From: Vicinamibacteraceae bacterium
GTDB taxonomy: Bacteria > Acidobacteriota > Thermoanaerobaculia > Multivoradales > Multivoraceae
Assembly (NCBI GenBank): GCA_012270995.1
Contig: JAAXHG010000201.1
Location: 57,682 to 121,681, forward strand
DNA: 64,000 nucleotides
Direction of reading: 5' to 3'
Shown: one piece after another, positions 16,511-52,382 of the stretch
How positions within the stretch are numbered: the first letter of the stretch is position 1
Layout: every line of letters begins with the position of its first letter
The notes under the pieces: model-generated
Told to the model about the DNA's origin: nothing
Databases searched by the model: none
What the model saw: the letters and a program-made list of their open reading frames with translations, nothing else
Translations under genes and position numbers: made by a program

Positions 16511-16597
16511 GGAGGCGTGGCCGAGCGGTCAAAGGCAACAGACTGTAAATCTGTCGGGCAAAGCCCTACGGTGGTTCGAATCCATCCGCCTCCACCA
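16511..16597 (+). tRNA. tRNA-Tyr(GTA)
   Basis: GGAGGCG/CGCCTCC acceptor, ACTGTAAAT anticodon region, long variable arm, encoded CCA. Confidence 0.95.
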
Positions 16598-16617
16598 CTT
16601 CCTCCCCACGCGGGTGC

Positions 16618-16690
16618 GCGGGAGTAACTCAGGGGTAGAGTCACAGCCTTCCAAGCTGTTGGTCGCGGGTTCGAATCCCGTCTCCCTTTG
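16618..16690 (+). tRNA. tRNA-Gly(TCC), acceptor 3' strand atypical
   Basis: GCGGGAGTAACTCAGGGGTAGAGT...CAGCCTTCCAAGCTG...CGCGGGTTCGAATCCCGTCTCCC; the 3' strand reads CTCCCTT instead of CTCCCGC and no CCA is encoded. Confidence 0.8.
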
Positions 16691-33503: not shown

Positions 33504-36500
33504 TCTTCCTCCGCAATCGCCTTCGCTATCTCACGCGCGAGACCGTCCAGGTCGTCCGCGTCGCCGGACACTACCCGCCATCCCGCCGAGACGAGCGCGC
33601 CGGCCTGTTCGGGCTCGTCCGGCCACAAGGCGGCGACCCGCCGTTCGGGCCACGCCAGCTCCGCTTCCGCGAGCACGACGCCGTCCTCGCCGCACAGCTC
33701 GAAGCCGACCTCAGGCGGAGGCGCGCCGCCCCGCGAGAGCGCTTCCAGCACGGGGAGCAGGTCGGGCGCGACCAACTCCAGAGCCTCCTTCCACAGGGCT
33801 TCGACTTCTCCAGGCGCCCGCGCCGGGTCCGAAACTCCGTCAAGGGCATCGTAGAGCCGCTCCTCGATCCCCTTCCGGGTCGTCCACCAGGCGCCCGGCA
33901 GGAACTGCAGGAGGTTGAACAGCCGGAGCACGCCGTTCCAGACCCGCCGGTAGTCCCCGCGGGCGCGCCCGTCCGTGTCGTCTCGGAGGTACACGGCGGC
34001 TCGCATGCCGTCCGGGTCGCCTTGCTCTACGGCGGCAGGTGGCAGCGCCACCAGCAGGTCCGCGTTTTCCGGCGCCGTTCCGGCCCACGCCCCTCGACCG
34101 GCGACCGCGACCGGCCGTTCGAGGTCGGCGAGCGCGGCACGGGCCTCGTCGGGCAGCGTCTCCGCCGCTCTGCTCTCGAAGCGGGACCGCAAGCCCGGGT
34201 CGAGCATCTCCCGGCTGTCGAAGAGTCCACACAGGGACGCGAACACCGCCCGTTTCCAATGCTCGGGGTCGGGTTTCGCCAGGTAACGCGCGAGCAGCTT
34301 CAGCGACGACTCCACCGCGAACCGGGCCCGCAAGGCTGCAACGCCCCAACTCTGGTCCAGAGCAACCTGGAGGTCCGTATCGCCGTTGCCGGCGAGGTCG
34401 AAGGTCGAGTCGACGGCGGCGTCTTCGACCACATCCCGCCAGGTGAGCGACCACGCCAGGTAGCCGGCGCGCACGAGCGCCATCCGCTTGAGCGAGTCGT
34501 CGTCGGTCCTGTCGCGATGGAACTCGAAGCCGTCCGTGAACACGGCAATCGGCTGCTGTCTGCTCGTCGTACGCGCGGGGCGGATGACGAAGTCCGGCCG
34601 GCTCGGGGCCGCGACGCCGTCCGCGAGTCCAAGATCGACCTGCGGCGCCATGTACCAGGTCGAGCCCGCCACCGTCAGAACGTAGCCCGGGCAGCCTCGC
34701 ACCAGGTCGCGTCGCAGCCGAACGGGTTCGCCGTCAACCCTGACCTGGGAAAGCGCGGCAACGAGTCGCTCCTCCAGTTCGCTCTCGAGCGGCTGCGCGA
34801 AGTTCACCGCGGCGAGCCCCTCGACCTCCTCGAGGTCCTCCCTCTGGGCCAGGATCGCCTGGAGAATCTCCACCGCCGCGGTTCTGGACGTGCTCGCCAT
34901 GTCGCGTCCGCGCCGATACGCGAACACGCAGCGATAGCAGCCGTCCTTTTCCGGGTCCTGGTTGCACGGGCAGGACACAAGCGCGTCCAACGCCGTCTCG
35001 AACACGCCGAGCAGCTTCGACGGCTCGCTCATCAGTTCCTTTAGGTAGCCGGTACCGCCGGGCACCGTGTCGTAGAGCATCAGGTACCGGCGACGGGTGT
35101 TCGTTCCGGCGTCCGGGTACTCGCTCGTCATCGCCCGCAGATGGTCGATCCGGCCGCTGAACCAGCGCTTCAGGCCGAGTTCCAGGGACGCGACGAAGGA
35201 AGCGACGCGGCGCTCGGTTCCAAGCGCCGCCCCCGCGGGAAGCAGCATCCGGACCGCCTCGGACCGGAACTGGCGATACAGGTAGAGGCAGTCCTCGATG
35301 TCGCCATCGCCGCTTTGCCCGGCGCCCGCGACGGCGCCGAACGCGCTCGGCCCGGCCCCGGCGCCGCGTGTCCTTGCCGCCGGGCTTCGCGCGGGACACG
35401 TCCGGGCGTGGACGGGATCGTCGTCGCGGTCCCCCTGGACCTTGCCGCAGCGTGTGCAGACGCGGAAGCCGTCCCGCGGCAGTTCGACGCCGGCGAACAT
35501 CGTCGGCTGACCTCCCTGGCCCAGCCGACCGAAGTTCATCTCGCGGAACGTGGCCGACGAGATGTACTCGAAACCGAACGGCCGTTCGCTGTTCGGCATC
35601 GCGTAGGCGCGCTCGACCGCCCGCGGCTCGAAGTCGGCGACAAGCTGCCGGGTGTAGAACAGCGGTTCCCGATCGTCCCGCTCGTCGACGATGCGGCTGC
35701 GCCGGTCCGGCGTGAAGGCATGCACGAGGCGAAGCGGCAGCATGCTCCGCCGCTGGCCCGCGTCGGCCCACATGCCGTCGCCGCAACGAGGGCAGGCGCC
35801 GTGCTCGTCCTTGACGTCCACCCGCTCGCAGTAGCTGCAGGACGCGCAAAGCCGCCACGTCTCGATCCCCGACAGCCGCAGATCGATCCGATCGATCCGG
35901 ACGCGGCGGCCCCCGGCGTAGAAACGGTTCTCCGGGGCGAGCTCGCCGAGAGCGGAGGCCGCCGGCCGCATGTACTCGTACGTGTCGTACTCGAATCCGG
36001 CGTCGCCCGCGGCAGCGCCGTAGCCCCCCGACTCTTCGCGCCGCCGTTCCCGGCGCCGGTAGATGACCGACTTCAGCGTCACGCCCGCTTCCGGAAACGC
36101 GTAGTTCGGCAGAAGCCCCTCGTCGGTCAGGAAGTTGAAGGTGTTGCGGCCGTTCAGGTCGCGCAGCAGGCGCTGGAGGCCGCCCCGTTCCTGAGCCAGT
36201 TCCCTGATCTCGTTCCCGGTCGCCTCGTCCGGCGGGTCGCGCCGCAACGCCGCGATCCGGCGGCGCAGCGCCTCGATCTCGGCGCGAAGCGACTTCCGCT
36301 CTTCGGCCACCTCCAGAAACCGCTCCAGCAGGCGCAGCCGCAATGACGGTTGACCCTCCGCGTCGCCCAGCAGGAACCCGCGCAGGTACGTCTTCGACGC
36401 CTCGTCCAGGCTGTCCGAGAAGGCGGAGAAGAATCCGTCGAGCAGGGCCTCCGCGCGCTCCCGTACGAAGTCGAACAAGGGATGGGGGAAGCGGTCCAGC

Positions 36501-39500
36501 GCCTTCCCTTCGACGCTGTCGAGCACCGGGCGAATCCTGCGCGGCACGGCATCCTCGGCGATGCCGGTGGCCGCCCATCCGTCGAAACAGAACGCCGTGA
36601 GCTGCCGCTCCAGCACGGCCGACGCATTGAGGAACACGCCGGGCGGCTCGACGCTGCCGCCCAGCATGTCGAGCGGCTCCTCGTAGAAGTAGAGATCGTG
36701 CGGGCGGCCGGCGGCCACGGTCAGCGTGAACGCGTTGCCGTCGCGCCTGCCGGCACGCCCGATGCGCTGGACGTAGTTCTGCCGCGCCGGCGGAACCGAG
36801 CAGAGCACGACGGTCGACAGGTCGCCGATGTCGATTCCCAGTTCGAGGGTCGGCGTGGCCGACAGCACGTTCGGCGCCCACGGCTTCGATTCCGGGTCGG
36901 CGAAACGCTCCTGAAGCTCGGCGCGCTCTTCGCGCGTGAGCAGCGCCGTGTGCTCGGCGGCCACGAGCCGGCGGATGGCGGTCTTCCGGTACAGCCGGCC
37001 GAACCACGAGGGCGCCGACGCCGCTTCGTGGCCGCCGTAGACGTCGTCCGCCGCGAGGTCGAGGCAGGGGACGCCCCGCCAGATGTCCACTTCCCGCGCT
37101 GGGACCACCAGCACGCGGTTCGACTTCTCGCAGCGCATCACGGCGACACGGGACGTCGCGTAGAGGGAAGCCGGGTCGAGAGCCCACGCCTGGGCGCCGC
37201 CGGCATCGACGCGCCGAACCAGGCCAGCCGATTCGAGCGACTCCAGCGCGGCCGCCAGGACATCCGGGGCGTCGTGGGTAGCCGAGAGGGGGTCGAGGGG
37301 CGAAAGGACCTTGATCGTCCAGTTCCTGTACCAGGACCGGCGCGACGGGCGCCCCAGGAGGGGCGCCAGCCCATCGCCCTTCACGGGCCGGTCAGCCGGG
37401 AAGACGGGCAGCGGGGAGCGCGGGCCGAAGTCCTGGAGCGCGCGTTGTCTGGTCAGCCACCAGCGGCTGGCGCCGCTGGCGAGGAATCCCTCCACCAGGT
37501 CGCTCCAGATCGCCCCACGGTTCTTCATGCGCCGCAGGATGCCGAGCAGCAGCGCCCGCACCGTCTCGACTTCGATCTCGCGGAAACCGCCGATCTCCCG
37601 GATGCGGGACCAGGCCTCACGGCGCGCCCGGTCGAACCGTTCGCGGTCCACGCCGATCGCCGCCGCGCGCGTGCGTTCCAGCGTTCGTCCGATCGTCGAC
37701 CGATGGCCGAACTCGGCGAACGCCTCCCAGCGGAGGCGGCGCGCCACGAGCTCGGGCAGGTCGGAACCCCGCGGCAGCCGGCCTCGGCGCCGCAGGGCGG
37801 CGAAGTCCCGGAGCCACAGCCGGTCCGGGGCGATGAACTCACTGACGAAACGCTCCGCGCCGAAACCCGCCGTGCCCGCGTTTCCGCCGCGCCAGCGGGC
37901 GACGACGCGGCCGTCGTCGGTCGCGCCGCCGATCAACTCCGACAGACTGATCTCGCCGTGCTCCTCGACCACCTGAGCGATGGCGGCCCGCACGTTGTTC
38001 GGCCAGGTGCGGGCCGCGACGAAGCCGGCCCTGTGGGCGGCGTCCTGCACGTTGTCGGAGAACGCGATGACCTTGCGGTCGTCGTTGTGGCGCGAAGCGA
38101 AGGTCTGGCCGAGCGCCACGCCGAGCAGGCTGGACGCCCGGGCGCCGAAGACGATCAACGCCTCCCCGGCGCCGCAGTAGGGGCAGTCCCGGCTGAGTTG
38201 CATCTTCGAGCCGCGCCCGCCGCCGATGGCCCTCTTGACGACGGCATCCGGGCGGAACACGCGCAGCACCTGGTCCCCGCCGCAACCGGCGCAGGGCTTG
38301 CCGGCATTCTCGGGCCTCGCCGTGAGCCGGCCGCAACCGCCGCAGATCGTCCCGTCGATGCCCCTGGCGGGCGACGGCGCCTCGCCCGGGAAGAAGTACT
38401 GCACGTCGACGTCGCGAGCGAAGAACCTGTTGTAGAAGACGCGCAGGTCCCGTTCGACGCGTTCCTCTCCGCCGCGCTTGACCGCGCCCCAGCCGGTCGC
38501 CCGGCACTCGCGGCACTGGATCAGCGGCAGGTGGACCGACCGGTCGTCCGGCTTCAGGTCGTCCGAATGACGCAGTCGATGCGGCGCGCCCGAAACGGCG
38601 CCATCTCCGGCCGCCGCGTCGCTCGAGGTCTCATCCCCGGCTTCGACCGCGGCGTCTTCGTGGGAACCCTGCGCCGAGGCAACGTCGTAGACGCTGCACA
38701 CCATGCGGCGGAGCTCGCGCACCCAGAGATGCAGGCCGACCTGCAAGAACGGCAAGAGCCGGTCCGACTCTTCGCCTCCCTCGCGCCGCCGCGCCACCGA
38801 GATCAGGGCGCACAGACCGTCGAGCACCGCGAGCGCCTCGCTTCCGGCGGCAACCGGCAGGCTTCGGCGGAGGCGGTTCGCGACCTCCACGACCGGCATG
38901 GCCCGCCCGTCGAGCACCCTGAGCAGGTTGACGAACGTGGCGTGCTCGCGCAGGCGGTCGGCCAGCGCGACGCGCCAACCGTCCGACTCGAAGCCGCCCT
39001 CGATGGGCACGTCGAAGAACAGTTCGTGCAGTCCGCGGATGTAGTCCTCCGCCGACTCCCGCCGGCGGTCGAGAACGTCTGCAAGGTCGGCCGCAAGGTC
39101 GGCGCCAGGCATCAGGTACCCGCCGATCAACGAACCGCCCAGGAACTCGTCGATGCTCTGCCGGGTTTCGCCGACGATGGAACCCGGCTCGAACGGCTGA
39201 GCGAAGATCCGGGATGCGTACTCGCGCAGCTCCGGCTCGGCGCCCTCGCCCCCCAGGGTCGCCGAGGTGCCGGCGCAGATCAGGCCCTCGCTCGCGCCCA
39301 GCCGTGCCCGCAGACGCCGAATGAGGCAGGCGAGGTCCGTGCCCTGCGCGCCGTCGAACGCGTGCAGCTCGTCCACCGCCAGGTAGCGCAGCGTTCCCGG
39401 CTCGTTGAACCGCCAGAGCCGCTGGTCCGAGGGCCGAACCAGCAGGTAGTCGAGCATCTTGTAGTTCGTGAGCAGGATGTCGGGAGGCTGCTCCAGGAGG

Positions 39501-40066
39501 CTCTCCCGGTCGGCGACGATGTGCTCCGGCCCCATCCCCACTTGCGGGGCGCGCGCCGCCTGGCCGATGAAGAGCCCCGCCGTGACGCGGCCGCGCAGAG
39601 ACGGCGTCCCGTAGATCGTCTTCGCGATGCGCCGCGCCTGGTCCGTCGCCAGAGCGTTCATCGGGTAGATGAGGATCGCCTTGATCCCTTTCCGGCCCTC
39701 CGGCGTGCTCGCCTGTTCGCGGCAGTAGTCGAGAATCGGCAGCAGGAAGCACTCCGTCTTCCCCGACCCCGTGCCGGTGGCGATGACCGTCGAGCGCCCC
39801 GCATCCGCCGCGAGCCGCGAGAAGGCGGTCCGCTGGTGGCGGTACGGCGTGTAGCCGAGAGGGATCTCCGGGAACGGCTCGCCGCCTTCCGGCGCGTGCC
39901 GGTACGGCAGGGCGATGGACAGATACGGACCCTTGACCAGGTTCTCGGGCTCCGTCAGGAAGTCGTCGATGACGCCCGCCAGCTCCGGGTTGGACGGACC
40001 GAAGCCGGTCCTGAGGAAGGACCGGAGAGCGTCGGCGACTTCCGAGGCGACGGCGGAGGGGATCAT
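33500..40066 (-). CDS. Giant DEAD/DEAH-box helicase with DUF1998/MZB C-terminal region (DruE / DrmA-DrmB-like)
   Basis: 2188 aa; YRHQRTAFSRLAADAGRSTVIATGTGSGKTECFLLPIL; YLAVDELHAFDGAQGTD; LGIDIGDLSTVVLCSVPPARQNYVQRIGRAGRRDGNAF; YDTVPGGTGYLKELM...CPCNQDPEKDGCYRCVFAYRRGRD; several CxxC motifs. Confidence 0.85.
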   Translation of the reverse strand: MIPSAVASEVADALRSFLRTGFGPSNPELAGVIDDFLTEPENLVKGPYLSIALPYRHAPEGGEPFPEIPLGYTPYRHQRTAFSRLAADAGRSTVIATGTGSGKTECFLLPILDYCREQASTPEGRKGIKAILIYPMNALATDQARRIAKTIYGTPSLRGRVTAGLFIGQAARAPQVGMGPEHIVADRESLLEQPPDILLTNYKMLDYLLVRPSDQRLWRFNEPGTLRYLAVDELHAFDGAQGTDLACLIRRLRARLGASEGLICAGTSATLGGEGAEPELREYASRIFAQPFEPGSIVGETRQSIDEFLGGSLIGGYLMPGADLAADLADVLDRRRESAEDYIRGLHELFFDVPIEGGFESDGWRVALADRLREHATFVNLLRVLDGRAMPVVEVANRLRRSLPVAAGSEALAVLDGLCALISVARRREGGEESDRLLPFLQVGLHLWVRELRRMVCSVYDVASAQGSHEDAAVEAGDETSSDAAAGDGAVSGAPHRLRHSDDLKPDDRSVHLPLIQCRECRATGWGAVKRGGEERVERDLRVFYNRFFARDVDVQYFFPGEAPSPARGIDGTICGGCGRLTARPENAGKPCAGCGGDQVLRVFRPDAVVKRAIGGGRGSKMQLSRDCPYCGAGEALIVFGARASSLLGVALGQTFASRHNDDRKVIAFSDNVQDAAHRAGFVAARTWPNNVRAAIAQVVEEHGEISLSELIGGATDDGRVVARWRGGNAGTAGFGAERFVSEFIAPDRLWLRDFAALRRRGRLPRGSDLPELVARRLRWEAFAEFGHRSTIGRTLERTRAAAIGVDRERFDRARREAWSRIREIGGFREIEVETVRALLLGILRRMKNRGAIWSDLVEGFLASGASRWWLTRQRALQDFGPRSPLPVFPADRPVKGDGLAPLLGRPSRRSWYRNWTIKVLSPLDPLSATHDAPDVLAAALESLESAGLVRRVDAGGAQAWALDPASLYATSRVAVMRCEKSNRVLVVPAREVDIWRGVPCLDLAADDVYGGHEAASAPSWFGRLYRKTAIRRLVAAEHTALLTREERAELQERFADPESKPWAPNVLSATPTLELGIDIGDLSTVVLCSVPPARQNYVQRIGRAGRRDGNAFTLTVAAGRPHDLYFYEEPLDMLGGSVEPPGVFLNASAVLERQLTAFCFDGWAATGIAEDAVPRRIRPVLDSVEGKALDRFPHPLFDFVRERAEALLDGFFSAFSDSLDEASKTYLRGFLLGDAEGQPSLRLRLLERFLEVAEERKSLRAEIEALRRRIAALRRDPPDEATGNEIRELAQERGGLQRLLRDLNGRNTFNFLTDEGLLPNYAFPEAGVTLKSVIYRRRERRREESGGYGAAAGDAGFEYDTYEYMRPAASALGELAPENRFYAGGRRVRIDRIDLRLSGIETWRLCASCSYCERVDVKDEHGACPRCGDGMWADAGQRRSMLPLRLVHAFTPDRRSRIVDERDDREPLFYTRQLVADFEPRAVERAYAMPNSERPFGFEYISSATFREMNFGRLGQGGQPTMFAGVELPRDGFRVCTRCGKVQGDRDDDPVHARTCPARSPAARTRGAGAGPSAFGAVAGAGQSGDGDIEDCLYLYRQFRSEAVRMLLPAGAALGTERRVASFVASLELGLKRWFSGRIDHLRAMTSEYPDAGTNTRRRYLMLYDTVPGGTGYLKELMSEPSKLLGVFETALDALVSCPCNQDPEKDGCYRCVFAYRRGRDMASTSRTAAVEILQAILAQREDLEEVEGLAAVNFAQPLESELEERLVAALSQVRVDGEPVRLRRDLVRGCPGYVLTVAGSTWYMAPQVDLGLADGVAAPSRPDFVIRPARTTSRQQPIAVFTDGFEFHRDRTDDDSLKRMALVRAGYLAWSLTWRDVVEDAAVDSTFDLAGNGDTDLQVALDQSWGVAALRARFAVESSLKLLARYLAKPDPEHWKRAVFASLCGLFDSREMLDPGLRSRFESRAAETLPDEARAALADLERPVAVAGRGAWAGTAPENADLLVALPPAAVEQGDPDGMRAAVYLRDDTDGRARGDYRRVWNGVLRLFNLLQFLPGAWWTTRKGIEERLYDALDGVSDPARAPGEVEALWKEALELVAPDLLPVLEALSRGGAPPPEVGFELCGEDGVVLAEAELAWPERRVAALWPDEPEQAGALVSAGWRVVSGDADDLDGLAREIAKAIAEED

Positions 40067-40190: not shown

Positions 40191-40430
40191 ATGCGGCCTC
40201 GACATCCGAAGAAGGAGGTCGAGGCCGCGCTGGCCGAGGCGGAGGCGGCGGGCTGGACCGTGACGCAGACGCCACGCGGCCATCGATGGGGCGTGATGAA
40301 GTGTGGTGAAGCCAGTCGGTCGGGATGCCAGCCGTCGATCTGGTCGACGCCCAAGGACCCAGGCGACCACGCCAAACGGCTACGGCGCGCCATCAAGCGC
40401 TGCCCCCACGGCTGGAACCGACCGGATTAA
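40191..40430 (+). CDS. Small toxin-like protein of an uncharacterised TA-like pair (SIWSTPK-x-PG-x-HA motif)
   Basis: 79 aa MRPRHPKKEVEAALAEAEAAGWTVTQTPRGHRWGVMKC...CQPSIWSTPKDPGDHAKRLRRAIKRC; a HicA-like basic fold is suspected, by motif only. Confidence 0.55.
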   Translation: MRPRHPKKEVEAALAEAEAAGWTVTQTPRGHRWGVMKCGEASRSGCQPSIWSTPKDPGDHAKRLRRAIKRCPHGWNRPD

Positions 40431-40444: not shown

Positions 40445-40942
40445 ATGCCGACCCAGCGATTCACCCTCATCGTCGAGGGTCCCGACCTGCAGTCCGAACC
40501 GCTCATCGACGAGTTGTTCGAAGCTGGCTGTGACGACGCCACGATCGGCCGGTGCGACGGCGTCCAGTACGTCGACTTTGACCGCGAGGCCACCGATCTT
40601 GGCGCCGCGGTTCTCTCCGCGGTGCGAGATGTCCAGCAGTTCGAGGGCGTTCACGTGACGGGCATCATCGACGTCGAGCCTGCCCCGACGGCAGAAGCCG
40701 CGCCCCAGTCGCAGACCGCCTGCGTCACGCTCCTCGCAGCAGCGCAGAGGCCTGCCTGCCTCACGGACGCCGCTGCGTTCTCGGAGAACGTGTACGTGGC
40801 TTGGCGTCGGACTGACCTGGCACGCCCTTCTCGAGTCGGCTCGGCAAAGAAGTGGCACATGGCGAGCGCCGAGTTGCTGGAGCCAGCACTGGCCTGGGCT
40901 TTCGTCGCGAGTGTCTCGACTTCTCTCCGGCCGGCGGGATAG
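40445..40942 (+). CDS. Partner (antitoxin-like) protein, C-terminal half possibly frame-disrupted
   Basis: SD AAAGGAGG (40430-40437); MPTQRFTLIVEGPDLQSEPLIDELFEAGCDDATIGRCDGVQYVDFDREATDLGAAVLSAVRDVQ. Confidence 0.5.
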   Translation: MPTQRFTLIVEGPDLQSEPLIDELFEAGCDDATIGRCDGVQYVDFDREATDLGAAVLSAVRDVQQFEGVHVTGIIDVEPAPTAEAAPQSQTACVTLLAAAQRPACLTDAAAFSENVYVAWRRTDLARPSRVGSAKKWHMASAELLEPALAWAFVASVSTSLRPAG

Positions 40943-41061: not shown

Positions 41062-44000
41062 GTGTGGTCTACAGTGACTGATCCAAAGCCCTCGACGAAG
41101 ACAGCACTAGCCATGCGAAGCGGGGATCAGTGTGCTCATCCGGATTGCGGGCAGCGCCTCACGCACCAGCCAGGGCCCTCCGCTACCACGACCATCGTCG
41201 GAGAGATGTGCCACATCCACGGCAGAAAGCCCGGAAGTGCGCGGTGGAATCCGGAGCTGACCGAGGAGCAGATCCGGGATTCCTCCAACCTGATCTACCT
41301 CTGTCCGAACCATCACACGATGGTGGACAAGAACCCCGATACCTACACGGCTGACCTACTGCGAAAGTGGAAGAACGACCACGAGATCAAGGTGACGGCG
41401 GCCAGGATTGAGGATGCTGCCCGCGAACCGCGGGTGGAACCCTCTGTTCGTTTCCCCACGTCCCTTGTGGATCGGGAAGTTGAAGCCGCACTTCTCTCCA
41501 TCAGGCAAGGCCGCCTTTTTCCCGACTTCGATACACGGGTTCGTTGTCTGCGACTCGGCACGGCCCTAACGAAGGGCGATTATGTAGGTGGCACGGCCGC
41601 CATCCGCTGCCGCGCTCTGGCTTGGTGTGCCCGGGTCCTGAGCCGGACCGATGAGGCGGAGACCGCGAAGGAGCATCTCCGTGAGGCGCGCCACTTGGGT
41701 GCCCCCGAGGAAGTCGTGATCGCGGAAGCGCTCACTCGGTCGCACGGAGGCGAGCACACAGTCGCCTTTAGGGCCCTCGCTGACGTGCACTCGATGACGG
41801 CGCAGTCCGCTGCTTTGATCGTAGCGGCCGACCGAGATGGTCCGGCAGGGGCCGTGCGATGGGCCACGGACGCCGGCGTCTCGGCGGTCGATTTGGACCC
41901 GGACGGCAAGTACGTGCTGCTCGCCTACCTCCTTGATCTCGGCCACTGGGAAGCGGCGTTCTCGACTCTCGACGCGGTGACGGAGGACGACCGCGCTGGC
42001 GCACCGGCCCTTGGCAGGCTGACGGGCTTCGCGAGCCTCCTGCGGGCCGTGCCGCACGATCTTCGTTCCACCGTGGCCCAAGGCGTCCCGTTCTTCGCAG
42101 CGGACTTTCCTCTAGCGGCGGATCGTGAAGCGCTGCGGACTCGCAGCCGCGCTTGGCGCCACTTCCGTGGCGCCGCCGAAGCCGCTCGTGGCTTGGGCTG
42201 CGCTCTGACCGCGGAGACGTGCGAAGAGTACGCCCTATGGCTCGAACTGCTCGATCCGGGCCGCAGGAACGAGGCGCGAATGGAATTGCAGATCAAGCTC
42301 CAGGACCTCGGCGCCAACCTCCGCTTCGTGCGATTGGCATTGCAATTCGGCATGCCGGTTGACGTCGCGACGGTCGAACGGGAGATTCGACGCGAAGTTG
42401 CAAGAAGAGGCTCCAGCACGGAGGGCACGGCGATCGCCCGGCTGGCGATCGCCCTGAAGCAAGAGACGGCCGGAGCGTTCGCGGAGTACGTCGAGCGGCA
42501 CCGGCAGGAACTCGCCGGCCATGTCGACGACCGAGCGCTCGCCTCTCTGGAAGTAGCTGCCCTGTCGCGCGCCAAGCGCTTCGACCAAGCGCGGCTCAAG
42601 CTGAGCAAGCTCGTACGAGGAGGGCTCGATGATGCCGAGGCGGACCGGCTTCGCGACGCAATCGCCAGGGGCGAAGGTAGCGACACGACGGTTTCACTGA
42701 GAAGGCGTTTCGAAGAGACCGGCACGTTAGGGGATCTCGCTGACCTCGTCGAGGCGCTCTCCGTTCAGGGCGAACTCAAGGAGTACTGCAAGTACTGCGC
42801 GCTCCTTTTCCAGGAGACTCGCGCTCCTGACGTTGCCGAACGGCTGGCCAACGCGCTGATGCATGCACAGGACTACCCGGGACTTGCGGCCTTTCTGGAG
42901 TCCAACGCGGATCAGGTCGAGCAGTCCGAAGCGTTGCGGCTCGCCTTCTGCTGGTCGCTGTTCTGGCAGGGCGCCTTGCCAGAGGCCCAGGAGGCCTTGG
43001 CCAGCTTCAGCGGCAAGCGGAACCAGCCGGATTACCGCAACCTGCAGATCCAGTTGGCGCTCTCCCTGGGTGACTGGGAGTCGGCATTGGCGGTCGTCGA
43101 GAGCGAGTATCGATCCCGCGAACGAAGACGTGGGCGGGAGTTGCTGGACATCGCGCAACTTGCCGGCGCCTTGGGATCGCCGCGCGTGAAAGCGCTGGCG
43201 TCAGCTGCGGCCCAGAAGGCTGAGGACAAAGCGGAGTTCCTCTTGGCTCTCCACATGCTGGCGGTCAAGGGCGGGTGGGATCACGAGCCGGAGGCTGTTG
43301 CCTGGCTGCACCGCGCGGCCGAACTCTCTGGGCCGGACGGTCCTGTTCAGACCGCACCTCTCAAGACGATCGCTGAGAGGATGCTCCCGTGGCGCGAGAG
43401 TCGCGTCAACGTGCTCGGGAAACTGGACGCGGGCGAGATCCCGGCTTTCGTGGCCGCCGAGTTTCTCAACTGTGGCCTCTCGGACTTGATGCTGCGCCCG
43501 GCCATTGCCAATCTGGCCGAGCCGGACCCCCGCAGACGGCGTCCGGTACCAGCGTACAGCGGCAAGCGGTCCAGGGTGCGCTGTGAAACGGCGCGCCGGG
43601 CGATCTTCGAGCCGACCGCACTCTTGACCTTGGGCTATCTGAACCTGCTCGACCAGGGTCTGGACGCTTTCGACGCGGTCGAGATTCCCCACTCGACGCT
43701 GAGGTGGCTCCTGGACGAGAGGACGGCAGCGTCCTTCCACCAGCCCAGCCAAGTAGAGGATGCTCGCCGGATCCGGGACCTGATCCAGGACGGGGCGGTC
43801 CTGGTGGCCCGATCAACGGGACGTCTGGACCGCGAACTTGCTTCCCGGATAGGTCCCGAGCTCGCTTCGCTGATCGCTGAAGCCGAGACGACTGAACATG
43901 CGGGCAGACAGCGTCTGGTCGTTCGTCCGTTTCCGGTTCATCGTGTCGGATCGCTTATGGATGAGGAGGTCGATCTTTCGGCCCACTATCCCGCGCTCAC

Positions 44001-45159
44001 CGGCTGCCAAGCGGTCGTTGACAGCCTGCACCAGCAGGGCCTCCTGACCGAGGAGAGGCACCAGGCCGCAGTTTCGTATCTGCGTCTCCAGGAGAAGCCA
44101 TGGCCTCGGCAGCCAGAGATCAGCGCGTCCGCCGTTCTTTACTTGGACGGTCTGGCGGTGACCTACTTGCTTCGGTTGGACATGATTGGGCTACTGCGAG
44201 ACGGCGGCTTCACGGTCTACGTCCCAGATGGCGATGTTCGGAGGATGTACGACCTGCTCTCCTACGAAGTCGCCTCAAGCAAAGTGAAGGCGATCTTGGA
44301 GCGCATCCGAGTCGCCCTCCGTTCACGGATCGAAACCGGGCAGGTGGCCGTCGGCCCTTTCCTGCCTCTCGCTGCATCCCAGGAAGGCTCGCGTACACAA
44401 CATCCCACCATGGAAGTGATCGCCTTGGCCGATCGCGCGGACGTCATCGTCTCCGACGACCGGTTCGGCGGTGGCTACGCGACAATCGGCGAGGGCGACG
44501 AGGTGGCGTTGACTGCCACGACGCTCGACCTTCTCGATACCCTCGCATCGACCGGAGCGACATCGCAGGAGGACCGGCGACGCCACAGGACCCGGCTTCG
44601 GCGTGCCGGCTACCTGTTTGTGCCAGTCGAGGAGGACGAGATTCTGGTTCACCTTCGCGACGCGGAAGTCGGACACGAGCGCGTCTTGGAGATGGCAGCA
44701 CTGAGGGCTGTGCGAGAGAACCTCCTGATCTCCCGCATGGGCGGCTGCCTCCAATTGCCCGACGAGGGGCCTTGGCTCGCAGCGACGATGACGGCCTTCA
44801 TTGTCGCCTTGAAGGCGATGTGGAAGGACGGGCTTGAACTCGCTGATGCGCGGGCCAAGTCGGACTGGATTCTGGATCAGATCGACCTCCGAGGTTGGAC
44901 TCACCGGCTACCCTTGGACAGTGCGAGCCGGACCATGGATGGACACCGAGCGGAACAACTCATCCGGCTCTCGCTGGCGCCGCCAGAGGCCTCGGCGACG
45001 GTGAGCGCGGAGTATTGGGAATGGGTCGATAAGCGACTGCTGAAGCCGATCCAGGTGGCTGAACCGGCCCTTTACGCTTGGCTCGCCGAGCAGTTCTTCC
45101 TCACGGTCTCGCGAGTGGCCGACAGGGCTGCTGAGAACCCGGAGCACGACGATGGATGA
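41062..45159 (+). CDS. HNH-nuclease / helical-repeat / tandem PIN-like multidomain protein (1365 aa)
   Basis: HNH: CAHPDCGQRL...GEMCHIHGRKPGSARWNPELTEEQIRDSSNLIYLCPNHHTMVDKNPDTY; long alpha-helical repeat middle; C-terminal IFEPTALLTLGYLNLLDQGLDAF...IPHSTLRWLLDE and VLYLDGLAVTYLLRLDMIGLL...ALADRADVIVSDDRF. Confidence 0.7.
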   Translation: MWSTVTDPKPSTKTALAMRSGDQCAHPDCGQRLTHQPGPSATTTIVGEMCHIHGRKPGSARWNPELTEEQIRDSSNLIYLCPNHHTMVDKNPDTYTADLLRKWKNDHEIKVTAARIEDAAREPRVEPSVRFPTSLVDREVEAALLSIRQGRLFPDFDTRVRCLRLGTALTKGDYVGGTAAIRCRALAWCARVLSRTDEAETAKEHLREARHLGAPEEVVIAEALTRSHGGEHTVAFRALADVHSMTAQSAALIVAADRDGPAGAVRWATDAGVSAVDLDPDGKYVLLAYLLDLGHWEAAFSTLDAVTEDDRAGAPALGRLTGFASLLRAVPHDLRSTVAQGVPFFAADFPLAADREALRTRSRAWRHFRGAAEAARGLGCALTAETCEEYALWLELLDPGRRNEARMELQIKLQDLGANLRFVRLALQFGMPVDVATVEREIRREVARRGSSTEGTAIARLAIALKQETAGAFAEYVERHRQELAGHVDDRALASLEVAALSRAKRFDQARLKLSKLVRGGLDDAEADRLRDAIARGEGSDTTVSLRRRFEETGTLGDLADLVEALSVQGELKEYCKYCALLFQETRAPDVAERLANALMHAQDYPGLAAFLESNADQVEQSEALRLAFCWSLFWQGALPEAQEALASFSGKRNQPDYRNLQIQLALSLGDWESALAVVESEYRSRERRRGRELLDIAQLAGALGSPRVKALASAAAQKAEDKAEFLLALHMLAVKGGWDHEPEAVAWLHRAAELSGPDGPVQTAPLKTIAERMLPWRESRVNVLGKLDAGEIPAFVAAEFLNCGLSDLMLRPAIANLAEPDPRRRRPVPAYSGKRSRVRCETARRAIFEPTALLTLGYLNLLDQGLDAFDAVEIPHSTLRWLLDERTAASFHQPSQVEDARRIRDLIQDGAVLVARSTGRLDRELASRIGPELASLIAEAETTEHAGRQRLVVRPFPVHRVGSLMDEEVDLSAHYPALTGCQAVVDSLHQQGLLTEERHQAAVSYLRLQEKPWPRQPEISASAVLYLDGLAVTYLLRLDMIGLLRDGGFTVYVPDGDVRRMYDLLSYEVASSKVKAILERIRVALRSRIETGQVAVGPFLPLAASQEGSRTQHPTMEVIALADRADVIVSDDRFGGGYATIGEGDEVALTATTLDLLDTLASTGATSQEDRRRHRTRLRRAGYLFVPVEEDEILVHLRDAEVGHERVLEMAALRAVRENLLISRMGGCLQLPDEGPWLAATMTAFIVALKAMWKDGLELADARAKSDWILDQIDLRGWTHRLPLDSASRTMDGHRAEQLIRLSLAPPEASATVSAEYWEWVDKRLLKPIQVAEPALYAWLAEQFFLTVSRVADRAAENPEHDDG

Positions 45160-47113
45160 TGCGAGGGAGATTCGAGAGGCGACGGCCTTGCTCGCACTGA
45201 GCTGCATGCCGCCATCCCTCCGAGAGACGCTGGCGCGTGACGCCCGGATGCGTGATGGCTATGGCATCCGGATCGACACCATTCTCGAGCTTGGCCATTC
45301 GGAATTCAGTGTGCCGGTCCCCGAAATCGTGCGCGGCGTCAAGAGCGCTCTCGACGGTGCCTCGGAAGCAACCATCCGGGACAAGGGCGGAAGCGACTGG
45401 CTAGTCGAAGCGGAGACCGGCGTCGACCAGCCGACCCTCTTCATCGTCCGAGGTGAGCAGAGAGTCGGCATGCATGCGTGGCTGACGCTGTCGCCGGACC
45501 GCGGTACGAGACTTCGTTGTCTCGACGCCCTTGCCGCCGATACCGGTCTACCGCCGAAGGCCTGCTCGTCTTGGCGGCGGATCCTCAAGGAAGGGAGCCT
45601 CCGGGGGGAGGAGGTGCCAGACTTCCTCACGGACCTCCATGCTACGGCCCGCGTCCAGGAGGAGTTTCTCGCCAATGGCGTCGGCGGGCCTGGGCTGAAC
45701 TCGCTGCTCGCCGCGCCTCCGTCCCGGGCCTACTTCGAGAGGCTCGTCGGCCCGCGGGGCGACAGCGATTCCATCCAGCTTCACGCGGCGGCCGGCGGCG
45801 AGGAACGCCTCCGGGAACTGGCCGCCTGGAAGCCATATGAGGGCTTCTTGCAGAGTCTCTACATGGCCGCGCATCCCGATTTGAGCGCTCGCATTGGGGT
45901 CGACGGCCTGAGCAGCGAGCAGCTCGAGCGGGCGTTCGACTTCATTCGTCGCGCGGGCGACCGAGTTTCACAGCTTGGCGCCATCGAGGTCGGGCTCCGG
46001 GTTTCCGTCGACCGGCCGGAAGTGAGTCCGGCGCTCAAGGAACTGGTGGAGTCGATTCGTGCAGACGACACGACTGGAAGCGCCAGTGGCTTCCGCGGCT
46101 ACTCGCTCCTTTACGTTCTTGTGTCGAGCGAGCTCGCGACCCGCCAGCAGCTCGCCGGCGAACCTCCCTTCTACCGCCGTCTGGCAGCCATGGCACAGGC
46201 AGGTGTGATTCAGCGGCAGATGGCCGCTGCGGGCATCGCGCTCGAGAACTCCGCCATCGGCTCGGTCGTCGGGGAGTACTTCCTGCAGTCCCTCGTGGAC
46301 CTCAGGCTGGAGCCGCGCCGGTTTCCCGCCCTCGGATCAGCGGATCAACTGCGAAACCACTTCTTTGGGCGAATCGCGCGAGCCGCCGAGCGCTACGAGA
46401 ACGAAGTGGACCCGGATCTGATCCGCGACCTGGCGCAGGTGATGGGCCCCGAGCAGCTTCGAGAGGCCGGGAGCAAGTACGTCTTGTACGCCCCCGGACC
46501 GCTTGGAGAACTCGAGGAAGGCCGGGAGTTGCCAGCGGAGTTTGCCCAAGCGATCCAGGCCCAGCTTGGCGCCGGGAAGGCCGCCACCCCCGCCGGCTTT
46601 GCTGCGCTCAGAACCTCGGCGGCGAGCTTCCGTGTCGGCAATGCGCAGGCGGATCTAGCGGCGGACGTGCTCGCGGGTTCGGATTTCCAGTTGGAAGAAG
46701 TCAGTAGCCGCTCGGAACTGGTCGCCACTCTGGGGCACTTGGCGTCCGTTGCCGCCGTCGCGCGAAGCGAGACGCTCGCGGACACGCTTCGGGTTGCAGT
46801 CAGAACGTCCCGTCAAGACCCTGATCTCAGGACCGAGCTCAACGAAGCGGTTACGGCCTTGCTGGTCGCCGCCGCGAGCCGGGCCGACATCGGGGATTGG
46901 GCGAGTTTCGTGGGAGACTGCCTTACGGAACTCGCGTTCAGCGACCTGACCGGAGACGAGGGCGGGGTCCTCCACGGCTATGTGCGTCGGCTTTGCGAGA
47001 TGGTCCCCGAACTCTGGGCTACCTGCGGAACTGCGGACGCAGCACTGCTCGCGTACATAGGTTCGCCGGCAAGCAAGGAAGACAAGCACGACGAGGGGCG
47101 CGGCGCCCACTGA
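45152..47113 (+). CDS. Uncharacterised 653-aa protein translationally coupled to the HNH/PIN protein
   Basis: Long open frame whose start overlaps the upstream stop by 8 nt; no family recognised. Confidence 0.6.
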   Translation: MDDAREIREATALLALSCMPPSLRETLARDARMRDGYGIRIDTILELGHSEFSVPVPEIVRGVKSALDGASEATIRDKGGSDWLVEAETGVDQPTLFIVRGEQRVGMHAWLTLSPDRGTRLRCLDALAADTGLPPKACSSWRRILKEGSLRGEEVPDFLTDLHATARVQEEFLANGVGGPGLNSLLAAPPSRAYFERLVGPRGDSDSIQLHAAAGGEERLRELAAWKPYEGFLQSLYMAAHPDLSARIGVDGLSSEQLERAFDFIRRAGDRVSQLGAIEVGLRVSVDRPEVSPALKELVESIRADDTTGSASGFRGYSLLYVLVSSELATRQQLAGEPPFYRRLAAMAQAGVIQRQMAAAGIALENSAIGSVVGEYFLQSLVDLRLEPRRFPALGSADQLRNHFFGRIARAAERYENEVDPDLIRDLAQVMGPEQLREAGSKYVLYAPGPLGELEEGRELPAEFAQAIQAQLGAGKAATPAGFAALRTSAASFRVGNAQADLAADVLAGSDFQLEEVSSRSELVATLGHLASVAAVARSETLADTLRVAVRTSRQDPDLRTELNEAVTALLVAAASRADIGDWASFVGDCLTELAFSDLTGDEGGVLHGYVRRLCEMVPELWATCGTADAALLAYIGSPASKEDKHDEGRGAH

Positions 47114-47134: not shown

Positions 47135-50100
47135 CTACTTGAAGCGCTCTTCGAACTCCGTCCACGCGATCCGGTAGTCCGTCTCCCGGTCGCAGCAGTC
47201 GAACGGGGCGTGGTACTCAATGGCCCGCTCGACGGGGCCGCCGGGGAGGGTGTCGTCGGTGATGTCGCGCGTGACCACCCCCTGCTGCAGGTCGTGGATG
47301 TCCTCCCAGCCGAGGGTGAGGCTGCTACGGACGGCGGACGGTGTGCGAAGGCCGTAGGCCGTGTCGCCCTTGCGGGCCTTTCGGGGCAGGCCCACGCCGG
47401 GGAGGCCCTTGGAGACGGTGAAGACGATGCGGCCGTTGCGGTCGTACCAGGTGTCGGCTTCGTACTGGCGCATGACGGGGAACTGGACGCGGTAAATCGT
47501 CAGGAGTTCTTCCAACGTCAACCCGAGGGCCATTGCAGCGAGGACGTCAATCTCGAGGAGGGCTTGCCGCCGGGCGTAGTCGGTCCGCAGAGCTACGTCC
47601 CACCGCCACTCTGGCGGGAGTTGGGCGAAGTCCTGGGGCAGACGGGGATCCTGTTTCGCCCAGGTGTCCGAGCGGAAGGCTTCGATGGCTGAAGCGCCAC
47701 CGCCCGGCGCGAGGCTCTCCGGACCAAAGCTGGCTCCGCGACCAACCGCCCGGCTACGGGCGCACGTTGATTCTTCCGCGCAGATCTCGGACCACAAGTC
47801 TGCGTAGTGCGTGGTCAGGCAACAGAGACGCAGCGCCCTGATTCGGAGGGCGTCCCGAATGCGCGGGTCGGAGGTGTCGTCGAGGACCGGAAGGCGGCTC
47901 AGCCACGCCAAAAGGACGTCACTCGCGCCGGTGCTCTTGATGAAGAAGTCGAACACGACGGAACTGGCCAGGGCAGAGAGATCCACGCAACTCGCGGCAT
48001 GCCGGAAGACGGTTGCCACGTTCGTGTGAATGAGCGCCACCTCTCTGGGGACGACGGCGCAGATCAGGGAGCGCTCGGACGCAGGGCCTGTCATCCTCCG
48101 GTTGATGAGCCGGTAGTAGTCGGTCGCCTTCTTCGGAACCTCTTCGCCCGCGTCTCGCCACGTCACGCGTGGCGTGCGACGCTCATACTCGACCCGGTCG
48201 CAGGCCGGCAAGTAGTTCGTCCGCGGCAGGTAGTCGTCCGGAAGCGTCGTCAGGTCCAGAACGTCGTAGTGGGCCTTCTCCGTGCAAATCCGCCGGGGCG
48301 TTTTGCTGAGCGGGTTGCCCACGAAGAAGTGTGGACCGGACAGGATGAGCTGTGCCGGAGTCTCCGGGAACTGTGTCTGCCTCCGGATGATCCCGTCGCG
48401 TCGGTCGAGCGTCTCGTTCCAGTGAGCGGTCGTACAGTAGGCAGCCTCTCCAGCGTCGCCGAGGCACCTTGGATGCGAAGCGAACTTCCGCAGCACACCG
48501 AGCAGCAGTCCCGCGTGAAGAGCAGGTAGCCGGGCCCTGACGGCCGGCGTTCCTGGTTCGTCGTACAGCTTGGCAAAGACCTCAAGCGCCTCCTGGTCGA
48601 CACGAACGATCCGGCCGCCGTGCCCGGCCGTGGCCCAGCGGTACTTGTCGTCCTTGATGCCGGGAACGGCCCCGCGTCCATCGTGCTCGAAACAGGCGTC
48701 GACCGTCGCCGGCGCGAACAGGTTGGCGATGTGGGCGAACCCCGGCTTCTGGCGCGGCCTGCCGTGTACGTTGACGCTGAACAGGGCGCGGTCGGGAATC
48801 GGAAACAGCATGAGCGAGTTCTGGAACTGAAAGTGCGCCTGCAGCCTGAGGTAGAGCGCCTCCCGAAGCGGCCCGCCCTTCGGGTCGTCGTAGACGCCCT
48901 CGGGATGCAGGTAGCCGACGACTCCGCTCGCGGCCGCGACCATCCACGCTTGCGGCAGGAAGCACTTGTAGAGGTTCGTCTTCTGGCCGGCGAGAAGCGG
49001 GTAGTTCTGGCGGGCGTTCAGGAAGGCCTGCGTCGCCTCGGCCTGTTCGACCTCCGCGAGCCAGGCCGCCCGAACGCCGGCGGCGCGGCCTGCCCCAGCC
49101 CCGAGCGGCGCGCCGGGGCGGCCGCCAGCGCCGCCGCCTCGCGCTGCGCGACTGTCGCGTCCTGGCCCGGCGGCGCGGGAGTCGCTGGTCGGTGGGTTCG
49201 ATGGGTTCGTGGTCGGCGCCTCGGACCGGTTCGCCAGCGGCCCCGGGGCGGAAGAGTCGGTGTTCTGACGGCGTCTGGACTCTTCGAGCGAGGCGCCCCC
49301 GCCGGCCAGCAGACTGGTCCGCATCTCGGCAATCCGGGTCGCGGAGTAGCCGCGCAGCGCGAGCAGCGGATTGTAGTCCCCCAGTACTCCGCTTTCCTTC
49401 CACTCCACCTTGACCCAAGGCGGATTTCCCAGCACAAGATCGAAGCCGCCTCTGACCCGCCCGTCGGGACCGTTCCCGTAGAAGAGGTCGGCAAACGCCA
49501 GCTCCCAATGGTGGAAACGGCGCCGCGACGCCAACTCGTCCACGAACTGGAGCCGCGGGAACTGCTCGAACAGCTTGCCGAGGTCCAGCATCCCGATCTC
49601 GTTCGCGATCCGCCTGGCGATCGCGTCCGCGTGCTCCGCGTACTCTTCGCCGAAGAGGTCGGCGGTCTGGTTCGGGCCGAGGCCGGGCTCGTACACCGAG
49701 CCGGTGAGCACGAGCGAGATCTCGTTCAGGAAGTCGTCGCGGTCCGGCAGTTGGTCCGCCTTCTCGATGGGCCAGAACCAGAGCGCGCACCAGTAGTCCA
49801 TCGCCAGCTTGAGGCGACGGTAGGGGCTGGCGGTGCGCCCGCTCTCGCTGAGGACGCCCTGGGCTCGGATGCGGTCCTTCCAGGCGTTCGCCGTGCGGCG
49901 CTCGCGCTCGGCGGGGGCCCGGCCCCACACGGGCAGGGTGTCCTCGGTTTCCCGGTGGTCGCGGGCGAGTTGCTCGGCATGAAGGGCCCAGAGTTCGTCC
50001 ACCCGGTCGGAGAGCCTCTCCAGCTCGGCAATCTGCTCTGGGGTGAAGGGCTGAAGGAAGCCCTTGCGCCATTCCTTGATCCGCTCGAAGTTCCCGGGCG

Positions 50101-52378
50101 CCAGTTCCTTCGCCGCCTTGTTGCGGTAGTTCGCCATGCCCGGGTCGGGGACCAGGAAGTGATACACGGTCCCGGGCGGTCGACGCGGCGCGCGGGTTCG
50201 CGCCTTGCCGGAACTTCCCATCCCCGCGTCGTCGCCGCTCCCGGCGCCTGACCCGGCCGACGCGGTCAGCGGCTCGACCCGCTCCGGCGGCTCGTTGAAC
50301 CAGAGGTCGGCCTTCCGCTCTTGCCGGCCCAGACGCGCCGAGGGAAACGCCTGCCGTCTCGCGCCCACGAGCGAGTTGCCGCACAGGAGCTGGTAGCCGA
50401 ACCAGGGCACGTGGCCGTCCCGGTGGATGCAGTTCAGCCACAGCGAGACCTCGGCCAGTTCCAGCGCCACCGGGTTCAGGTCCACGCCGTAGACGTTGCG
50501 GTCGGCGATGTAGTGCCGGACCTTCTGGAGTTCGTCGGCGTACTCGTCGTGCCCGATGCGCCGGCCCAGTTCCGCCTGCTTGCGGTCGAGGTACTTCTCG
50601 GCGAGCTGGTTGACGGCCTCGTTGAGGAACGCCGCCGAGCCCATCGCCGGCTCGCACACCGTGAGGTCCAGGATGCGGTCGGCGGGCATGTCGTCCGGGA
50701 TCAACTCCTTGAGCGAGTACTTGACGACGCAGCGCGTGAGCGACTCCGGCGTGTAGTAGCTCGCCGTCTTCTGCCGGTCGCGGCCGGCCAGGCGGTAGAC
50801 GAACGAGCCTCTCCGATGGACCCGGAGCTTCCTCCGACCCTGTTCGTCTCGGTCGTAGACCTTCTCTTCGTCCTCGTACTCGCCGAGGTCGCGCGCCGGC
50901 ACGAACCAGGCGCTGGCGAGCACGTCCGGCTTGTCTCCCGCCTTCTTCACCTCGTACAGGTCCTCTTCGGCGAAGAAGCCCCGGTAGGAGAGCAGCGCCT
51001 CGTAGACCGCGCCCAACTGGTTGATGCCGAGTTGGCCGTAGGAGATGCGCCCGCGCCGTCCGCGGCGGCCCTTGGCCGGACGGCTCAGGGACATCAGCCT
51101 GATCACGCGCTGGAGCACGCGGTTGCGCAGCTTCACGCGGTCGAGCAGCGGCGTGGCGCCGTCCCGGAACAGCCGGCTGTCGAGTGCCCTCATCCGGAAG
51201 CCGTGGCCGCGGCCGCCGCCGAGCGCGAACTGGCTGCCCTCGTCGCCGAAGCCGTCGCGAACGAGCCGGAACAGCATCTGGACGCTGTGGTGCAGGTAGT
51301 AGCCGTCGAGCGACTCGTCGCTCGTCAGGCGCACCAGTTCGAGGTCCCGCAGCCGTTCCAGGCCGTAGCCCTTCCGGTACGCCTCGGCGTCGATGGGCGC
51401 GTAACCGAGATCCGGCCTCGCCTCGATGTAGAAGAGGAACAGCAGCCGGTACATGTAGCGCAGGCACTCCAGACCGAGTTCGCCGGCGAGCTGGTCGTCG
51501 AGGCGGTAGACGCGGTCCTTGCTCACTTCGCGCAGGTACCGAATCGCCTCGTTGCCGATCAGCTCGATGGACTCTCGAAGCGCGTACTTCAGGTCCTCGG
51601 AAACGGCGAAGGCATGCTTGTGGCTGTTCTCGTCCAAGCTGTCGAGGAGGCTTCCGCCCTGTTCGGGGACGAGGCATTCGCGGTGCAGAAGGGCCGCGGC
51701 GGCCCTGAGCGTGGCGCCGTCGCGGCGGCCGAGAATCTCGTCCAGGTCGAAGCGCAGCAGGCGGTTGTGGGTCCACTTCCCGCGTTCGATCAGGAGGATC
51801 TGACCCGCGGAGAGCAGCACGACCCAGCGAGGAGGGCGCTCTTGGCCGAAGATGCGGCGGGTGACGATGTCGTTCCAGGTCTCCCTGAGCAGCGCCTCCG
51901 GCGGCGGCGCCTCGCCGTGGTACTGGGCGCGGTGCGGCCTGAGGGTGAGCGGATCTTCGTCTTCTCCCGCGGCGTCATAGACGCCGAGCGCCAGCAGGTT
52001 GACCGCGCCGTACTGGCGCGCGGCGTGCAGCACCGGCACTTCGCCGCCGTCCTCGAGAGCGTGGTTTCCAGGCTCGTACTCGTAGCCCAGGGCCGCGAGA
52101 AGCTGACGAAACCAGGCCCGCTGACGCTCCACGCGGGCTTCGTCGCGCCGCTCGCGCATGTAGCGGCCCCGGAACCGCAGGTAGTCGCCGGCCAGGCCTC
52201 GCAGGGCCTCGTACGGAGGTCGGGCGCCGGCGGAAGCGCCGCCCGCCGCCTTCGCTTCGTCGCTCCAGCGGGAGACGGTGTCCCCGATGTCTCTGGCGAA
52301 GATCTCCGAGAGGTAGTGCTGACTGTAGAACTCGTTCTCGTTGTGGATGCCGGGGAACGTGGTTGCGGCGGCGGGCAT
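47135..52378 (-). CDS. Large N6-adenine-type DNA methyltransferase (Eco57I/DrmMI-like)
   Basis: 1747 aa; motif I DLTVCEPAMGSAAFLNEAVNQLAEKYL; YGVDLNPVALELAEVSLWLNCIH; motif IV FDLVLGNPPWVKVEWKE. Confidence 0.85.
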   Translation of the reverse strand: MPAAATTFPGIHNENEFYSQHYLSEIFARDIGDTVSRWSDEAKAAGGASAGARPPYEALRGLAGDYLRFRGRYMRERRDEARVERQRAWFRQLLAALGYEYEPGNHALEDGGEVPVLHAARQYGAVNLLALGVYDAAGEDEDPLTLRPHRAQYHGEAPPPEALLRETWNDIVTRRIFGQERPPRWVVLLSAGQILLIERGKWTHNRLLRFDLDEILGRRDGATLRAAAALLHRECLVPEQGGSLLDSLDENSHKHAFAVSEDLKYALRESIELIGNEAIRYLREVSKDRVYRLDDQLAGELGLECLRYMYRLLFLFYIEARPDLGYAPIDAEAYRKGYGLERLRDLELVRLTSDESLDGYYLHHSVQMLFRLVRDGFGDEGSQFALGGGRGHGFRMRALDSRLFRDGATPLLDRVKLRNRVLQRVIRLMSLSRPAKGRRGRRGRISYGQLGINQLGAVYEALLSYRGFFAEEDLYEVKKAGDKPDVLASAWFVPARDLGEYEDEEKVYDRDEQGRRKLRVHRRGSFVYRLAGRDRQKTASYYTPESLTRCVVKYSLKELIPDDMPADRILDLTVCEPAMGSAAFLNEAVNQLAEKYLDRKQAELGRRIGHDEYADELQKVRHYIADRNVYGVDLNPVALELAEVSLWLNCIHRDGHVPWFGYQLLCGNSLVGARRQAFPSARLGRQERKADLWFNEPPERVEPLTASAGSGAGSGDDAGMGSSGKARTRAPRRPPGTVYHFLVPDPGMANYRNKAAKELAPGNFERIKEWRKGFLQPFTPEQIAELERLSDRVDELWALHAEQLARDHRETEDTLPVWGRAPAERERRTANAWKDRIRAQGVLSESGRTASPYRRLKLAMDYWCALWFWPIEKADQLPDRDDFLNEISLVLTGSVYEPGLGPNQTADLFGEEYAEHADAIARRIANEIGMLDLGKLFEQFPRLQFVDELASRRRFHHWELAFADLFYGNGPDGRVRGGFDLVLGNPPWVKVEWKESGVLGDYNPLLALRGYSATRIAEMRTSLLAGGGASLEESRRRQNTDSSAPGPLANRSEAPTTNPSNPPTSDSRAAGPGRDSRAARGGGAGGRPGAPLGAGAGRAAGVRAAWLAEVEQAEATQAFLNARQNYPLLAGQKTNLYKCFLPQAWMVAAASGVVGYLHPEGVYDDPKGGPLREALYLRLQAHFQFQNSLMLFPIPDRALFSVNVHGRPRQKPGFAHIANLFAPATVDACFEHDGRGAVPGIKDDKYRWATAGHGGRIVRVDQEALEVFAKLYDEPGTPAVRARLPALHAGLLLGVLRKFASHPRCLGDAGEAAYCTTAHWNETLDRRDGIIRRQTQFPETPAQLILSGPHFFVGNPLSKTPRRICTEKAHYDVLDLTTLPDDYLPRTNYLPACDRVEYERRTPRVTWRDAGEEVPKKATDYYRLINRRMTGPASERSLICAVVPREVALIHTNVATVFRHAASCVDLSALASSVVFDFFIKSTGASDVLLAWLSRLPVLDDTSDPRIRDALRIRALRLCCLTTHYADLWSEICAEESTCARSRAVGRGASFGPESLAPGGGASAIEAFRSDTWAKQDPRLPQDFAQLPPEWRWDVALRTDYARRQALLEIDVLAAMALGLTLEELLTIYRVQFPVMRQYEADTWYDRNGRIVFTVSKGLPGVGLPRKARKGDTAYGLRTPSAVRSSLTLGWEDIHDLQQGVVTRDITDDTLPGGPVERAIEYHAPFDCCDRETDYRIAWTEFEERFK

Positions 52379-52382
52379 CGGC

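Follow-up and report, generated by a model that had tools for sequence, protein, structure and literature searches.

What could a pair of overlapping genes do for a bacterium when the first of them appears to carry two kinds of nuclease domain on one repeat scaffold? This question is raised by a stretch of 64,000 nucleotides from Vicinamibacteraceae bacterium (assembly GCA_012270995.1, contig JAAXHG010000201.1, positions 57,682 to 121,681), here called the window. Gene A (41062–45159, + strand; 1365 aa from GTG 41062) encodes a protein with the order HNH, tetratricopeptide repeat (TPR)-like repeats, helix-turn-helix (HTH), PIN1 and PIN2, and gene B (45152–47113, + strand) is an open reading frame for a 653-aa partner in which a permuted GreAB-C-like domain is followed by alpha-helical repeats. 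The stop of A overlaps the start of B by 8 nt (45152–45159, + strand). An initial annotation, made from the letters alone, had described both reading frames and their 8-nt overlap, together with an HNH motif, a helical-repeat middle and two C-terminal PIN-like segments in the 1365-aa protein, and all of these were borne out by the analysis presented here.

A prediction with which the pair can be compared already exists, as TPR-GreAB-C-PIN conflict systems were proposed in eLife in 2021 with 13 kinds of effector mentioned, including HNH, REase and PNPase (PMC8195603, Figure 2K). A–B is placed beside this class because the PIN family (PF20698), the rule of a swappable N-terminal effector, HNH included, and a GreAB-C-type domain are shared; the TPR-like scaffold, fast divergence, and occurrence in cyanobacteria and other bacteria are also common to both. 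By this comparison, A–B is probably a related split form of the class that works alike. The fuller statement, that it represents the predicted TPR/GreAB-C/PIN conflict (immune) class in a form divided between two genes and also uses the mechanism proposed for it, seems to us evenly balanced between right and wrong. A scores above the cut-off of PF24407 and orthologues of B above that of PF24388, and the names of these Pfam families, HTH_upst_double_PIN and Permuted_GreAB-C, indicate that the domains are already known to curators. The split pair, the 'double PIN', the 'permuted GreAB-C', the evidence from fusions and the PIN switch discussed below had no description in the open literature, most subscription journals lying outside the search.

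Effector, scaffold and tandem PIN-like domains of gene A

Both A and B are real, selected genes, since orthologous pairs are found in other genomes (24–69% identity) and the ratio of nonsynonymous to synonymous substitution rates (dN/dS) is well below 1; for A against its orthologue at locus L011, dN is 0.42 and dS 1.60. Translation of A probably starts at GTG 41074 (codon 5; product of 1361 aa), since the orthologue at L010 begins at that position. The N-terminal HNH nuclease domain occupies an exchangeable effector position at 41086–41406 (+; residues 9–115), with H51, N76 and H85 and cysteines at 24, 29, 50 and 81. This segment matches PDB 9om4, an 'HNH endonuclease' (E 1.6e-18), as well as SAVED-domain chains, and the triad H51-N76-H85 is retained in all four HNH-bearing relatives that were read. 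Among PADLOC models, PDC-M68A (4.5e-33) and several endonuclease effectors match the domain.

Downstream of the effector lies a TPR/pentatricopeptide repeat (PPR)-like helical scaffold (41449–43356, +; residues about 130–765), for which designed PPR proteins in the PDB give matches at E about 1e-6; the TPR_19 match is weak in the window and TPR matches are clearer in relatives. Between the scaffold and the double PIN lies an HTH domain (43363–43569, +; residues 768–836), which matches PF24407 with 63.3 bits, above the cut-off of 27 (E 2.7e-17). After the PIN domains, a C-terminal helical region (44557–45156, +; residues 1166–1365) completes the protein.

Comparison with relatives indicates that the core of TPR-like repeats, HTH and double PIN is constant while the N-terminal effector is exchangeable. 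HNH stands at the N-terminus in the window, L010, L011, L013 and L027, a DUF676-type alpha/beta hydrolase in L008, L012 and L014, a caspase in L018 (a Leptolyngbya plasmid) and a PNP_UDP phosphorylase in L009. Restriction-endonuclease-like N-termini (GIDL...QCK) are found in L016, L017, L019, L029 and L030, with weak Mrr_cat matches below cut-off in L016 and L030. The N-terminus is hydrophobic or without an assigned family in L015 and L028, and L026 has a short leader alone and no effector. On the Leptolyngbya plasmid, the caspase-type member (L018 1-2145) lies two genes downstream of a multiubiquitin/ThiF/DUF6527 cluster.

The two PIN-like domains look like tandem copies, because a profile of one can be aligned to that of the other (hhalign P 6e-4) and PIN1 of a Methylophaga relative matches PF20698, the PIN family of the TPR-GreAB-C-PIN system, at 20.8 bits (below cut-off). 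D850 faces D1029 in this alignment, and one pairing also sets position 955 opposite D1132. PF20698 itself matches A in two stretches with 39.4 bits (cut-off 27.8; E 8.9e-10). PIN1 (43597–43941, +; residues about 846–960) has E850 in place of the conserved D and lacks a third acid (R955). PIN2 (44140–44556, +), with the PF20698 match at residues 1027–1135, has the acids D1029, E1080, D1132/D1133 and D1156.

The acids were surveyed in 17 sequences, 10 from the window's clade and seven from the cyanobacterial-type clade. D1029 and E1080 of PIN2 are present in all 10 of the former and none of the latter, and an acid at PIN1 position 955 shows the reverse distribution (0/10 and 7/7). All 17 sequences have an acid at both 850 and 1132, the residue at 850 being D in 16 of them and E in the window alone, whereas an acid is found at position 886 in 10/10 and 4/7. 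Each clade thus keeps one better-equipped PIN, and the choice between the copies appears to have switched. Since the 17 rows are related by descent, this clade pattern may reflect a single evolutionary event, and the Fisher value calculated for it does not count as independent evidence. In the window, PIN1 is probably not catalytic in view of E850 and R955, and PIN2, which contains the VSDDR segment, is therefore probably the active RNase.

Gene B and its permuted GreAB-C-like domain

The initial annotation could not place the 653-aa partner in any family, and this no longer holds. A GreAB-C-like alpha/beta domain in permuted form lies at 45281–45469 (+; residues about 44–106; PF24388), and the same residues score above the PF24388 cut-off in six orthologues of B, with 28.0 bits in L008, 51.6 in L012, 31.7 in L014, 39.6 in L015, 54.8 in L026 and 32.0 in L027. 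On the strength of these orthologues, B is assigned to the permuted GreAB-C family. Its relation to the C-domains of GreA and GreB proper would rest on the assignment made by the Pfam curators. Strands are predicted by AlphaFold at residues 44–106 with a predicted local distance difference test score (pLDDT) of about 51–76 (55 for B overall), and the remainder of the protein is predicted to be helical.

The sole match to the GreA/B C-domain itself (PF01272) in the window's genome is at G000:C142:9393-9572, inside a 711-aa frame, and similar frames of 718–738 aa occur in G015, G026 and G029. A canonical short GreA was not found in the window's incomplete assembly.

Several observations weigh against placing A–B with the TPR-GreAB-C-PIN class. 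B of the window scores only 16.2 bits against PF24388, below the cut-off of 27. A profile of the N-terminus of B, compared by hhalign with 27 real GreA/B C-domains that had been tandem-duplicated to allow for permutation, gave nothing, its scores being no better than those of a reversed control. Foldseek with the model of B, built from a five-sequence alignment, returned helical-repeat matches only. For A, the structural comparison suggested by the initial annotation gave a divided result. In the model of residues 755–1365 (pLDDT 73; five sequences in the alignment), the secondary-structure elements of PIN2 come in an order compatible with a PIN domain, D1029 following strand one and D1132 strand four, but a Foldseek search of the PDB returned no PIN match (best E 0.39). 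Support for the PIN and GreAB-C folds is thus from profiles and motif conservation, not from structure. The architecture also differs. In the published class GreAB-C precedes a single C-terminal PIN, mostly in a solitary gene whose neighbours are rarely conserved (PMC8195603), whereas A–B consists of two overlapping operonic genes, repeated as a pair at eight loci, and has an HTH (PF24407) ahead of two PINs. No GreA/B-C domain was found between TPR and PIN in the same protein; the GreAB-C-like domain is permuted (PF24388) and lies in gene B, downstream of the PINs of A, with a long helical region after it. As these two defining features of the class are lacking, A–B is not filed as a strict member. 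Finally, the parent class was predicted in 2021, and no experimental study of any member, or of RNA polymerase binding, was found in the literature searched.

Pairing, neighbourhood and distribution

The search for conserved gene pairs that had been recommended at the outset was productive. B directly follows A in all eight split loci (the window, L008, L010, L011, L012, L014, L015 and L026; Acidobacteriota and Proteobacteria), in each case with an overlap of 4–11 nt. In plasmid records B is present only where A adjoins, both B matches in 339 genomes of L012's class sit with A, and B without A was seen in neither set. In L027, from a betaproteobacterium, A (with HNH) and B form one protein of 2014 aa, in which the B profile matches residues 1370–2012 (E 5e-204). 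This fusion stands beside the split L026 in the tree with 100/99 support, nested in a clade of split forms, so the split and fused states interconvert. Cyanobacterial and related relatives are single genes whose C-terminal ~700 aa appear to be remotely related to B (hhalign E 8.6e-6, probability 83%). A plain BLAST comparison between B and the fused protein of L009 gave nothing, and the B profile by itself failed to reach the cyanobacterial C-termini; a profile-profile comparison with more rows did match. That A and B act as one unit is therefore strongly suggested by L027, and more weakly by the cyanobacterial forms.

A toxin-antitoxin arrangement, in which A would be a nuclease toxin and B a dedicated inhibitor released on infection, would account for two overlapping genes in fixed order with the nuclease first, and for the better conservation of B than of A (about 69% versus 51% to L011). 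However, a single polypeptide contains both A and B in L027 and, by weaker homology, in the cyanobacterial-type forms, and B is constant across changing effector enzymes and the effectorless L026, unlike an effector-specific antitoxin. We regard this arrangement as unlikely; in a variant of it, A may be subject to an intramolecular brake.

The kind of HNH domain raises a second alternative, namely a messenger-activated effector like Cap5 of CBASS, in which the TPR/B part would take the place of SAVED and sense a nucleotide signal. The N-terminal HNH is of the type found in Cap5-type (SAVED-HNH) proteins and in other HNH defence effectors (PADLOC PDC-M68A and SduA models), and both the solved relatives, which include SAVED-domain proteins, and the PADLOC effector models agree with such an origin. 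In A, however, the HNH sits on a TPR-double-PIN core, no SAVED match was obtained outside the HNH part, and the four large flanking genes encode helicases and a methyltransferase, with no cyclase among them. The same HNH type is moreover widespread in defence proteins and the same core carries non-nuclease effectors, so that a Cap5-like function is improbable.

The flanking genes themselves suggest a further possibility. Upstream of A–B are a UvrD-like gene (31344–33503, −) and a DruE-like MZB helicase gene (33500–40066, −; 2188 aa), and downstream are a type IIG/DrmMI-like methyltransferase gene (47135–52378, −; 1747 aa) and a DrmD-like SNF2 gene (52383–55277, −). The four genes (31344–40066 and 47135–55277) have the appearance of a defence locus in a single orientation, with A–B inserted on the opposite (+) strand. 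The initial annotation gave weight to this position between two halves of a restriction-like locus, and A–B could on that basis be the nuclease arm of a Druantia/DISARM-like helicase-methyltransferase system, as its neighbours on either side are the genes for the DruE-like helicase and the type IIG-like methyltransferase, and remnants of both flank the pair in two sister genomes. The significance given to the position was not upheld. Helicase and methyltransferase neighbours are absent at the six distant loci L008, L012, L014, L015, L026 and L027, and at L011 and L013 the flanks hold short remnants, 82–94% identical to the genes of the window, beside full-length A (51%) and B (69%). At L011 these remnants of helicase, methyltransferase and SNF2 genes lie at 3838–4877 and 13785–15051 around the intact pair, with equivalents in L013 and L044. 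The flank remnants have dS of 0.35–0.59, B has 0.9 and A has 1.6 (values above 1 are saturated and give rough ranks only), and the GC content at third codon positions is 0.75–0.77 in A–B against 0.87–0.89 in the flanking genes. Remnant flanks beside intact pairs, together with the differences in dS and base composition, therefore argue that A–B is not the nuclease arm of the flanking locus, an idea that intact pairs without those neighbours largely refute and that we consider very improbable. A–B is probably an independent module exchanged at this spot; no copy of the flanking locus without the insertion (an empty site) was found.

Just upstream of A, the window has two small genes (40191–40430 and 40445–40942, +; 79 and 165 aa), the longer of the two frames starting at 40325. 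By eye they resemble a HicA/HicB-style pair, with no clear Pfam family, and the larger gene is kept upstream of A in L010, L011 and L013 (about 55–59% identity) and was unseen in distant relatives. Elsewhere in the window, a cluster of three tRNA genes (Thr-TGT, Tyr-GTA, Gly-TCC) lies at 16423–16689 (+).

The family is sporadic. PF24407 has four genuine members among 297 genomes of the phylum, and a fifth match, at L006, was rejected as a false positive in an ankyrin protein. The domain occurs in six of 369 genomes of L012's class, and the A profile has matches in four of 21 genomes of the genus. Plasmids also carry the family, half of eight being predicted conjugative. Scans of phage genomes and IMG/VR yielded no relatives, and one broad genome scan, whose peptide patterns were narrow, gave four loci only. 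Such patchy occurrence is the pattern of defence genes, not of housekeeping genes. A housekeeping factor for RNA processing or transcription termination, which the presence of PIN and GreAB-C domains in housekeeping proteins also might suggest, is hardly credible for genes that are this scattered, occur on plasmids and have variable effectors.

A possible role at the transcribing polymerase

The proposal of a conflict or abortive-infection effector made in the initial annotation is favoured by effector swapping, sporadic occurrence, pairing, fusions and the published prediction for a related class, and its argument from locus position falls away. PIN RNases are needed for phage defence in DS-3 and DS-5 (DefensePredictor), of which DS-5 is a two-gene system that requires both components and is not toxin-antitoxin-like (PMC13092281). 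Set beside A–B from their descriptions, these systems have other architectures (a split PIN; a DUF5830/AcrIF4-like partner).

For the parent class it has been proposed that GreA/B-C contacts RNA polymerase through the beta' coiled coil at its secondary channel, that PIN cuts the extruded transcript and that the N-terminal effector serves as a suicide back-up (PMC8195603). Applied to the window, A and B would form one complex, and the GreAB-C-like domain of B would dock on RNA polymerase as GreA and GreB do at the secondary channel, a step that is the published hypothesis for the parent class (PMC8195603) and not a result of this analysis. During infection, PIN2 (D1029, E1080, D1132/D1133, D1156) would then cleave transcript left exposed or backtracked. 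The TPR scaffold would sense the trigger and, should this cleavage fail, would release the HNH as a DNA-degrading suicide effector.

A more specific form of this proposal is offered tentatively and is, on balance, doubtful: a split immune nuclease would ride transcribing RNA polymerase by means of its permuted GreAB-C partner, and a switch between lineages would have given the catalytic role to PIN2 in the HNH/hydrolase clade but to PIN1 in the cyanobacterial-type clade, with the other copy always a regulatory or structural pseudo-nuclease. The reciprocal pattern of acids provides a precise, falsifiable prediction of the active PIN in each clade. In addition, the split form makes the RNA polymerase hypothesis open to testing, as the constant, putatively transcription-facing B is separable from the nuclease part. 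If true, A–B would represent an immune system that strikes viral transcripts while they are at the polymerase, and an exchangeable suicide module would form its second line of defence.

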